NCBI RefSeq assembly: GCF_023822045.1
Contig: NZ_CP084712.1
Location: forward strand, 1,922,001-1,986,000
Length of the DNA: 64,000 bases
From: Sphingopyxis sp. USTB-05
Lineage (GTDB): Bacteria; Pseudomonadota; Alphaproteobacteria; Sphingomonadales; Sphingomonadaceae
Direction of reading: 5' to 3'
Shown: positions 37,751 through 64,000 of the stretch, in pieces
Position numbering within the stretch: position 1 is the stretch's first letter
Layout of the letters: each line of letters begins with the position of its first letter
Translations under genes and position numbers: made by a program
Notes under the pieces: generated by a model
Database searches by the model: none
What the model saw: only the letters and a program-made list of their open reading frames with translations
Told to the model about the DNA's origin: nothing

Positions 37751-37819
37751 CGTCATTTCCGCGAAAGCGGGAACCCGTTAGCCACGGCGAAACTGGGTCC
37801 CGCTTTCGCGGGAATGACG
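37751..37819. repeat. Inverted repeat, CGTCATT...CCGCGAAAGCGG family
   Basis: The left arm (from 37751, CGTCATTTCCGCGAAAGCGG and on) and the right arm (37795-37819, ending GGGAATGACG) are reverse complements with one mismatch and one indel. Each arm contains its own CCGC-GAAA-GCGG hairpin. The core CCGCGAAAGCGGG resembles the CCCGCGAAGGCGGGG of the inverted repeats bounding the nuclease remnant at 62.1-62.5 kb. It fills the gap before the hydrolase gene. Confidence 0.75.
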
Positions 37820-60941: not shown

Positions 60942-60987
60942 CGCATTTGTTCTTTATTTGTTCTCACTGGCGCGATATTCTGCGTGG

Positions 60988-62076
60988 GTGGAATCAACAA
61001 AGCCTCTTCCCCCGATCGCGGGCCGTGGCGCCCCGACGAACCTGCGCCCGACCCGCACCGGTTCGGCCGAGCGCGTCGCCGATGGCGACTGGCTTGATGC
61101 GGCGGAAGACATCGACGGCGACATTCCACGGCTTCGCACCACGGTAACCGTCGAGCATCCCAAAACGATCATTTCGCGCAACAAGTCCCCCGACATCGGC
61201 TTCGATCGCTCAATCAATCCCTATCGCGGCTGCGAGCATGGTTGCATTTATTGTTTCGCGCGTCCGACGCATGCGTTTCACGACCTGTCACCGGGGCTCG
61301 ACTTTGAAAGCAGGCTGGTCGCCAAACCCGATGCGGCGAAGCTGCTTCGCGCCGAACTGGCGAAACGCGGCTATGTCGCGGCGCCGATTGCGATCGGGAC
61401 CAACACCGACGGCTATCAGCCGATCGAGCGCGAATGGGGCATCACCCGATCGGTGGTCGAGATACTCGCCGAAACGCGCCACCCCCTCATCATCACGACC
61501 AAGTCCGACCGCGTGCTGCGCGATATCGACCTGCTCGCCGATATGGCGCGCGACAATCTGGTCGGCGTCGCCGTTTCGGTAACGTCTCTGGACCCGCAGA
61601 TCGCCCGCACGCTCGAACCACGCGCGCCGCACCCGCGCCGCCGCCTGGCCGCGATCCGCAGGCTGATAGACGCGGGCGTGCCGACGCAGGTCAATATCTC
61701 GCCGATCATCCCCGCGATCACCGATCACGAGATCGAGGCGATCATGGCCGCCGCCGCAGAGGCCGGCGCGATCCGTGCGTCCTATATATTGATGCGCCTT
61801 CCCCATGAGGTAGCGCCGCTCTTTCGCGCCTGGCTCGCCGCCCACTATCCCGACCGCGCCGACAAGGTCATGCATATGGTGCAGGACATTCGCGGCGGCC
61901 GCGACAACGACCCGAATTTCTTCACGCGAATGAAGGGCCAAGGCGTCTGGGCGCAGCTCATCCGCACGCGCGTCAAGCGCGCGGCACGCGAGCATGGCAT
62001 GGACAGGAGCTTCCCGCCGATCCGTAGCGACCTGTTCCGTCCACCCGAGCGCGATGGGCAGATGGAGCTGTTCTAG
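60988..62076 (+). CDS. PA0069-family radical SAM protein
   Basis: 362 residues. Radical SAM motif C82-x3-C86-x2-C89 in GCEHGCIYCFARPTH. Other conserved parts are NTDGYQPIEREW, ITTKSDRVLRDIDLLADMA and MRLPHEVAPLF. This family (SplB-like, related to DNA photoproduct lyases) has no firm function. The GTG before ESTKPLPP gives a likely start; a TTG 30 bases upstream is possible. Its stop is 15 bp before the left inverted repeat of the GIY-YIG unit. Confidence 0.87.
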   Translation: MESTKPLPPIAGRGAPTNLRPTRTGSAERVADGDWLDAAEDIDGDIPRLRTTVTVEHPKTIISRNKSPDIGFDRSINPYRGCEHGCIYCFARPTHAFHDLSPGLDFESRLVAKPDAAKLLRAELAKRGYVAAPIAIGTNTDGYQPIEREWGITRSVVEILAETRHPLIITTKSDRVLRDIDLLADMARDNLVGVAVSVTSLDPQIARTLEPRAPHPRRRLAAIRRLIDAGVPTQVNISPIIPAITDHEIEAIMAAAAEAGAIRASYILMRLPHEVAPLFRAWLAAHYPDRADKVMHMVQDIRGGRDNDPNFFTRMKGQGVWAQLIRTRVKRAAREHGMDRSFPPIRSDLFRPPERDGQMELF

Positions 62077-62091
62077 CGACAGGTACAGACA

Positions 62092-62476
62092 AACCGTCGC
62101 GCCCGCGAAGGCGGGGGCCGCTAGCGTCATGGAGCCGAACGCGATGAGGCAAGCCTACGTCTACATCATGACCAACAAGCCGATGGGCATCCTCTACATA
62201 GGAGTCACAAACGACCTTCCATCTCGAATCCACGCGCACAGGTCAGGGACGGGCTAGGAATTTTGCCGAAAATGGAATCTCAAACGACTGGTCCCTGCCG
62301 AACCATTCGACCGGATCGATGAAGCGATTGGTCGGGAGAAAGCTTTGAAGAGATGAAACCGGGTATGGAAACTGCGTCTGATTTCAGAAGCCAACCCCGA
62401 GTGGATCGATCTGTTCGAACCCCTCAACAACTGAAAGGTGCCGCCAGCGGCCCCCGCCTTCGCGGGGGCGGCGGTT
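62092..62476. mobile_element. GIY-YIG unit bounded by 35-bp inverted repeats
   Basis: The 35-bp ends 62092-62126 and 62442-62476 are inverted relative to each other with three mismatches; the conserved core is CCCGCGAAGGCGGGGGCC. Between them lies only the nuclease remnant. The unit fills the entire gap between the radical SAM gene (stop 62076) and the acyl-CoA ligase gene (stop 62483). No target-site duplication is evident. Calling it mobile is an inference. Confidence 0.5.
62144..62434 (+). pseudogene. GIY-YIG nuclease remnant with two in-frame stops
   Basis: One continuous frame of 97 codons has the normal length of small stand-alone GIY-YIG proteins. YVYIMTNKPMGILYIGVTND contains the GIY-YIG-type motif (YVYIM...LYIG). 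Codon TAG at 62255-62257 and TGA at 62354-62356 (where homologues have W) interrupt it, while the region after each still reads as family sequence: AEPFDRIDEAIGREKALKR and NPEWIDLFEPLNN. Both stops are single-base changes, so the decay is recent. An upstream ATG at 62129 is also possible. Confidence 0.8.
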
Positions 62477-62482
62477 ATTCCA

Positions 62483-64000
62483 TCAGGCCGCGTCCAGCGA
62501 CCGTAGTTTGTAATCCTTATAGTCGTCGCGGATCTGGCGCTTCAGAATCTTGCCCGTCGCGGTGTGCGGCAGCTCGTCGACGAAGACGATCTCGTCAGGC
62601 AGCCACCATTTGGCGACCTTGTCCTTCAGATAATCGACAATCACCGCCTCGTTCGTTTCTGCACCGGGCTTCCTGACGATCAGCAGGATCGGCCGCTCGT
62701 CCCATTTGGGATGATAGACGCCGACTGCCGCCGCTTCCTGCACTCCGGGCGCGCCGACCGCCGCATTTTCAAGCTCGATCGAGCTGATCCACTCGCCACC
62801 CGATTTGATGACGTCCTTGGCGCGATCGGTAATCTGCATCACGCCATCGGGGTGAATGACCGATACGTCGCCGGTATCGAACCAGTCCTCGGCATCGGCG
62901 GCGTCGGCATCGGCCTTGAAATAACGCCGGATGATCCACGGCCCGCGTATCTGGAGCCGTCCGCTGCTCTGTCCGTCACGCGGCAGTTCCCTGTCCTCGT
63001 CATCGACGATACGCAGTTCGACGCCGAACGGCGGGCAGCCCTGGCGACAGACGACGTCGACGCGCTCGTCAAAGCTCATCTCGCCCCAGTTCCACGGCCG
63101 CTTGCCCATGGTGCCGATCGGCGATGTTTCGGTCATCCCCCAAGCGTGCGCCACTTCGACGCCGGCCCTCATGAAACGTTCGATCATCGCGCGCGGCGCG
63201 GCGGACCCACCGATGATGACGCGCGTCAGCTTGCCATAATCGATGCCCGTTGCATCCATATGGCCGAACATCGCCAGCCAGACCGTCGGAACGCCCGCGC
63301 TGTGCGTCACACCCTCGTCATGCATCAGGTCGCACAATATTTGCGCGTCATTGGTCGCCGAAAAAACCAGCTTTGCCCCCACCGTTGCCGCCGCGAAAGG
63401 AATGCCCCAGCTATTCGCATGGAACATCGGCACGATCGGCAGGACGACGCTGCGGTTCGACATGTCGAACACGTCGGGCTGGATCTCGGTGATCGCGTGG
63501 ATGACGTTCGAGCGATGTTCGTAAATCACGCCCTTCGGGTTGCCCGTCGTCCCGCTTGTGTAGCAAAGCCCCACCGGATCGCGCTCGTCGAGCTCGACCC
63601 ATTCGAAACTGCCGTCTTCGGCATCGATCAGGTCACGATAGGAAGAATATCCCTCGCGCGCCGGCGCGTCGAACAGGATGAAGTGTTCGACCGTCGGCAA
63701 TTGCGGACGCAACCGCTCGACGATGGGCAGGAACATCGCGTCAAAGAACAGGACGCGGTCCTCGGCGTGATTGATGATATAGACGAGCTGCTCGTCGAAC
63801 AGCCGCGGATTGACGGTGTGCAGCACTCCGCCAAGCCCAGCGCTGCCGTACCAACTGACCAGATGATAGCCATGGTTCATCGCCAGCGTTGCGATCCGAT
63901 CGCCCTTTTTCATCCCGAGCTTGGTCATCGCCGCGGCAAAGCGACGTGCATCCTTGCCGACATCGCCCCACGTCGTTCGCGTCATGCTGCCGTCGGCCCA
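62483..64000 (-). CDS. Acyl-CoA synthetase (AMP-dependent), 5' end beyond the window
   Basis: At least 505 residues are visible and the frame stays open to the right edge, so the N-terminus is missing. ANL-family motifs: [19 protein letters not shown] (P-loop), [38 protein letters not shown] and the C-terminal [12 protein letters not shown] catalytic lysine. It is closest to medium/long-chain fatty acid CoA ligases of the AlkK type. The 3' end abuts the right inverted repeat of the GIY-YIG unit. Confidence 0.93.

Follow-up and report, generated by a model that had tools for sequence, protein, structure and literature searches.

A small GIY-YIG nuclease gene, now broken, lies between two inverted copies of a hairpin-forming palindrome in the 64,000-nucleotide stretch of Sphingopyxis sp. 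USTB-05 DNA analysed here (the window). The best explanation, to which we assign a probability of about three in four, is a decayed nuclease-palindrome unit belonging to a widespread class, in which a nuclease has a cognate hairpin palindrome, close pairs of that palindrome are REPIN-like, and cutting of the palindrome promotes spread. Genes of this kind are associated with flanking palindromes, palindrome and nuclease types match, gene-free pairs have the arm order of the units, and units have been repeatedly gained, lost and exchanged at fixed intergenic sites.

The unit in the window and its relatives in the same genome

The features concerned, in coordinates of the window, are as follows.

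37751..37819, no strand: gene-free pair of inverted hairpins outside the unit, of a related, different palindrome type; fold z -6.9
60958..62076, + strand: upstream convergent gene, radical-SAM-like (named from a look at its sequence), one side of the orthologous junction
62092..62129, + strand: left palindrome arm, with CGTC tag, stem CGCCCGC/GCGGGGGC and tail CGCT; stem partly decayed
62144..62434, + strand: GIY-YIG nuclease pseudogene of 97 codons, with in-frame TAG at 62255-62257 and TGA at 62354-62356
62153..62365 (contig 1984153-1984365), + strand: PF01541 GIY-YIG domain, 41 bits, above cut-off
62439..62476, - strand: right palindrome arm, matching the left one in inverted orientation
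62483..63985, - strand: downstream convergent gene, AMP-ligase-like (named from a look at its sequence), the other side of the junction

The sequence-only reading had described 35-bp inverted repeats with three mismatches, enclosing a single small nuclease gene and fitting between two convergent stop codons. The repeats are as described over their first 35 nt and extend to 38 nt (34/38 matching, 89% complementary, with 309 nt between the arms in an inverted-repeat search), and the flanking genes indeed end at 62076 (+) and 62483 (-). Only one GIY-YIG frame is present between the arms, as had been claimed, but with its two in-frame stops it is a pseudogene. It retains 77% identity over positions 1-100 to an intact copy at the equivalent position in another genome (G169); intact orthologues are small single-domain GIY-YIG proteins of 96-100 aa. 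The putative active-site residues Y8, Y19, R29 and E66 are unchanged across 13 aligned relatives. Folded as single-stranded DNA, the right arm has a z of -2.75 and the left arm a z of -0.48, the poor left-arm fold being consistent with decay of the window copy.

Other assignments of the unit were not productive. NCBIfam gave weak partial matches to the nuclease, far below cut-off; the top PADLOC match reached just E 0.036, and a defence-system reading was rejected; the window has no Rfam match at gathering score. The nearest solved sequences are distant, the UPF0213 proteins PDB 1zg2 and 1ywl (E 0.003 and 0.009), and neither is known to have a palindrome link.

PF01541 has four matches in the 4.68-Mb genome. 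One is a UvrC-size frame of 666 aa; the other three are stand-alone copies, and the type of the inverted palindromes on either side differs from copy to copy.

Window copy: palindrome CGTCGCCCCCGCGAAGGCGGGGGCCGCT
L001, a 98-aa frame without stops: palindrome TGTTCCCCGGCGAAAGCCGGGGCCCA
L004, broken, between yqeY and dnaG: palindrome CCGTTCGTGTCGAGCGAAGTCGAGACACCC

Genome-wide there are 14+14 copies of the core CCCGCGAARGCGGG (reversed control 1+0), frequently in gene-free close inverted pairs, and the window's palindrome is found at 20 places in its own genome at up to three mismatches. As the window nuclease is broken, the window-type palindromes of this genome are now orphans. The structure at 37751-37819, which had been read as a palindrome related to the repeat at 62 kb, is real, consists of two inverted hairpins and is related; its sequence CATTTCCGCGAAAGCGGGAACCC is nevertheless of another type, and judged on sequence it is likely not the partner of the window nuclease.

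Nuclease genes, their palindromes and the gene-free pairs

Association with flanking repeats was examined in a non-random set of 93 GIY-YIG matches from 149 genomes of the same bacterial family, made up of 90 near the top of the ranking plus the three stand-alone copies listed above, the UvrC match L003 being excluded. The best inverted repeat was sought from 350 bp upstream to 400 bp downstream of the domain, with a threshold score of 20. That score was reached in 82/93 matches, 11 being without such a repeat, compared to 3/172 other places in the same loci, 57/744 mixed-genome flanks (upstream and downstream sequence from different genomes) and none of 372 shuffles; the window's own unit scores 30. 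A second set came from named genomes, mostly Proteobacteria with single records from other phyla, and comprised the best 80 of 580 loci. Nine of these had too little flank, and of the 71 usable loci 54 were repeat-flanked and 17 were not, compared to 2/138 other places. The mixed-flank control scored in 113/568 cases here, a high rate accounted for by a CGTCATTCCCGC..GCGGGAATCCA palindrome type common to many members. The palindromes around the window nuclease are thus not due to chance, and the expectation of the sequence-only reading that GIY-YIG genes elsewhere would also have flanking repeats has held; its refuting case, repeats just as frequent next to unrelated genes, did not arise.

The palindrome type tracks the nuclease type rather than the genome. 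In 78 units with a domain free of stops and a repeat score of at least 20, palindrome and protein distances between genomes are correlated (Mantel r 0.54, 0/2000 permutations as high), also within each of the two main protein groups (0.31 and 0.50, 0/2000 each). For the 47 genes with a partner in their own genome, the median likeness of the palindrome is 0.45 to the palindrome belonging to the closest protein from a different genome, versus 0.20 to the palindromes of genome-mates (p 3e-11). Genome G156 has one unit with the stem variant CCAGCGAAAGCTGG; the variant is present at 6/27 palindrome places of that genome, two of which are the arms of that unit.

The window-type 28-mer is present at up to three mismatches in 68/80 genomes of the genus, the reversed control giving 0 in each. 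Among the 150 places listed for nine genomes (G149-G157), there are at least 48 neighbour pairs within 120 bp, and all 48 of those listed have the +- arm order of the nuclease unit. Their spacings fall into classes of 50 bp (17 pairs) and 62-63 bp (27 pairs), with one pair each at 47, 48, 60 and 65 bp. The two spacing classes in G149-G157 differ by approximately one helical turn.

The 13 genomes with the nuclease subtype of the window site have a median of 71 palindrome copies, versus 16 in the 67 others (p 1.7e-5). The effect is not significant in independent tree pairs (average over 11 pairs: 3.0 agree, 0.6 disagree, 7.4 equal), and three genomes without the subtype still have 122-159 copies. 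That presence of the nuclease drives palindrome number was consequently set aside, since significance is lost after kinship correction.

Two orthologous sites that change state

Seventy-eight of 80 genus genomes match the upstream gene of the window's junction, and 76 junctions were read, with classes relabelled by eye. Occupied and empty sites differ between relatives, as the sequence-only reading had anticipated: 26 junctions are compact, as are 2 in distant members; 13 have a GIY-YIG unit; the remainder are 8 solo same-type palindromes, 13 GCGAGC-type, 4 CTGAGC-type pairs, 4 mixed remnants and 6 other. By eye, 23 of the 26 compact junctions have the identical 4-bp stop-codon overlap (2 of the 23 with an altered upstream-gene end), and in all 13 occupied junctions both flanking frames stop at the homologous codon. 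In side observations, a further repeat type, GTCATTGCGAGCGAAGCGAAGCAATCCAG and its variants, most with an inverted partner, fills 13/76 junctions (L190, L191, L192, L196, L200, L203, L205, L208, L210, L214, L219, L143 and L183), and the junction L202 of genome G170 holds a 1301-bp insert with a window-type palindrome at its right end.

Occupancy at this site requires 12 changes on the flanking-gene tree, versus a shuffled mean of 12.2, and is therefore not clustered on the tree. Vertical descent alone is unsupported, unit distances being unlinked to those of the flanking genes (r 0.00, 2463/5000 permutations as high). The best-supported tree conflict groups the units of L138 and L144 (100/99), versus hosts L126 and L138 (100/100). 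At least 4 of the 13 copies of the subtype are broken (the window, G172, G197 and G217), and the 73-100% identical copies include two in pieces. All 13 lie at this one junction, which argues against free transposition.

The second site is that of the broken copy L004, between yqeY and dnaG, where 68 of 71 searched genomes matched and were read. Seventeen sites are compact (<60 bp), 16 have UPF0213-like GIY-YIG units, 33 have other elements and 2 are otherwise. All 33 other elements have a gene for an unrelated nuclease of DUF559 type together with the palindrome sequence CCCTCCCGC; among the 16 GIY-YIG units there is no DUF559 match (0/16) and CCCTCCCGC is found in one. The single DUF559-type protein from this site submitted to Pfam matched PF04480 (E 4e-38). 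The DUF559 loci (L305, L306, L308, L316 and 29 more) alternate with the GIY-YIG units. The four states require 25 changes on the best tree, versus a shuffled mean of 30.2, and unit and flanking-gene distances have a weak positive relation (GIY-YIG r 0.18, 101/2000 permutations as high; DUF559 r 0.20, 63/2000). In the 30 best-ranked DUF559 loci of the bacterial family (L371-L400, 99 genomes), 26 genes lie between matching palindromes, compared to 0/60 other places; the mixed-flank control scores in 75/240 cases, a high value due to the resemblance of the palindromes to one another. No DUF559 match was obtained in the genome that contains the window. A side observation at this site is that dnaG of G176, G181, G202, G150 and G164 (L363-L366 and L368) has an in-frame insert of ~310 codons in its zinc-finger part; in L363 this has a LAGLIDADG match together with a weak match to an intein splicing domain, and it is thus probably an intein.

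Both orthologous junctions have, within the genus, switched repeatedly among compact, palindrome-only and nuclease-bearing states, and units have been exchanged, inverted and relocated over evolutionary time. One subtype occupies two sites, L404 being 83% identical to L401 with flanks that do not match; L405 is only 75% identical to L401 although their upstream flank is common (87% over 1370 bp), and the downstream flanks differ. Compared with G172, which has the same flanks, the unit of G156 is in inverted orientation, and the break falls at the palindromes. These data are compatible with insertion or with recombination between species, and the nuclease may act as the catalyst.

An account in which the units are static, and the patchwork of junctions arises solely from ordinary interspecies homologous recombination that uses the conserved genes on either side, would fit both the confinement of the 13 subtype copies to one site and the homologous end codons of the flanking frames in the 13 occupied junctions. 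We consider it unlikely, however, since the flanks of L138 and L144 have neither reduced divergence nor an imported tract around the unit though their units group together, and since one unit is inverted between its own palindromes and one subtype is also found at a second site. Considerably less probable is that the palindromes are host 3'-end elements, such as bidirectional terminators, mRNA stabilisers or elements with other REP functions, and that nuclease genes settle in these tolerated spots. In its favor, the genes at the window site meet 3' end to 3' end, and relatives have other palindrome types there (13 GCGAGC-type and 4 CTGAGC-type of the 76); yet nothing terminator-like lies within 61900-62700, for which the terminator reading was rejected, the yqeY-dnaG site is non-convergent, 23 window-site junctions are without any palindrome, and nucleases of one type have matching palindromes in different genomes while those within one genome differ in theirs. 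A homing-type gene, whose nuclease cuts a pre-existing solo palindrome and is copied in by repair, is similarly improbable despite the 8/76 same-type solo palindromes and the common sequence on both outer sides of L197 (solo) and L154 (with gene), since homing endonuclease genes have halves of their own target on each side and each arm at an occupied site is here a whole palindrome, L197 is equally explicable as a deletion between short within-arm repeats, and the 23 compact sites are entirely palindrome-free.

The proposed nuclease-palindrome unit and known repeat systems

The preferred explanation, that of a nuclease traveling with its cognate palindrome, would operate as follows. A stand-alone GIY-YIG endonuclease of ~97 aa would be paired with one particular hairpin-forming palindrome, two inverted copies of which enclose its gene, and the gene-free pairs of that palindrome scattered through the genome would be REPIN-like derivatives. 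The enzyme would recognise the palindrome and cut it, most likely in the form of a single-stranded hairpin by analogy with the Ssn nuclease of Neisseria, and the cut may help units and palindromes to spread or be exchanged via replication, recombination or DNA uptake. The data suggest that the nuclease travels together with its palindrome as a unit, and movement of the DNA by the nuclease is inferred.

The statement of the sequence-only reading that no system of this kind had been described is probably out of date, in view of the Ssn nucleases and NTS repeats. A 2025 study in Nat Commun reportedly described a GIY-YIG nuclease family, with thousands of homologues, that cuts single-stranded DNA at a Neisseria repeat. 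The window unit is presumably a decayed member of this Ssn/NTS nuclease-repeat family. The likeness consists of a small single-domain GIY-YIG protein, an own palindromic repeat in many copies and a Neisseria homologue. The differences are that the palindrome sequence in the window is another and its nuclease copy broken, and that turnover of units at orthologous sites is added here. The homologue, Neisseria gonorrhoeae locus L234, which we assume to be the published Ssn, was found by a search with aligned relatives (62% to L065, the first row) and lies among CGTCATTCCCGC..GCGGGAATC repeats.

A survey of CGTC REPs assigns repeats of the L234 type to CGTC-1, corresponding to dRS3 of Neisseria, and describes these REPs as stem-loops with a CGTC outer end, mostly in inverted dimers and usually, not strictly, with a CCA tail and a stem that opens with AT pairs (Di Nocera 2013, PMC3733652). 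The window palindrome CGTCGCCCCCGCGAAGGCGGGGGC agrees with this description in its CGTC end, its stem-loop and the inverted orientation of its close pairs, and differs in its arm tail, CGCT rather than CCA, and in GC rather than AT stem-start pairs. According to the same survey, no dedicated transposase was found for CGTC REPs (Di Nocera 2013, PMC3733652), whereas the palindromes studied here are partnered by a GIY-YIG gene. That a GIY-YIG nuclease is the partner of CGTC-type REPs is likely.

The suggestion that REP/RAYT-like logic may apply is supported in architecture and population behavior, by the association, the tracking of types and the arm order of the listed gene-free pairs; spreading by the nuclease is a deduction, and the window copy a pseudogene. 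In REPIN-RAYT systems, an enzyme gene likewise lies between its own palindromes and palindrome pairs are small derivatives (PMC3116915, PMC2817692). The RAYT is however a tyrosine (HUH-type, Y1) transposase and the window unit encloses a GIY-YIG nuclease; the unit is thus RAYT-like in its working and is not a RAYT system. A literature search returned no paper on a GIY-YIG/palindrome link, which does not show its absence from print, and nothing that looked related on DUF559 in combination with palindromes or inverted repeats. In the literature searched, no description was found of site switching, of the inverted unit or of the parallel with DUF559.

Tentatively, and at somewhat less than even odds, nuclease and cognate palindrome may be a general selfish unit across enzyme folds (GIY-YIG and DUF559) that docks at, leaves and is replaced at fixed sites, spreads palindrome-only copies and is the missing driver of the CGTC REPs. 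The findings link a large class of bacterial repeats, the CGTC REPs, to GIY-YIG nucleases. The many natural nuclease-palindrome pairs have a specificity that is legible from the genome and open to direct testing, and the two switching sites, with compact, GIY-YIG and DUF559 states alternating between related species, make repeat movement directly testable.
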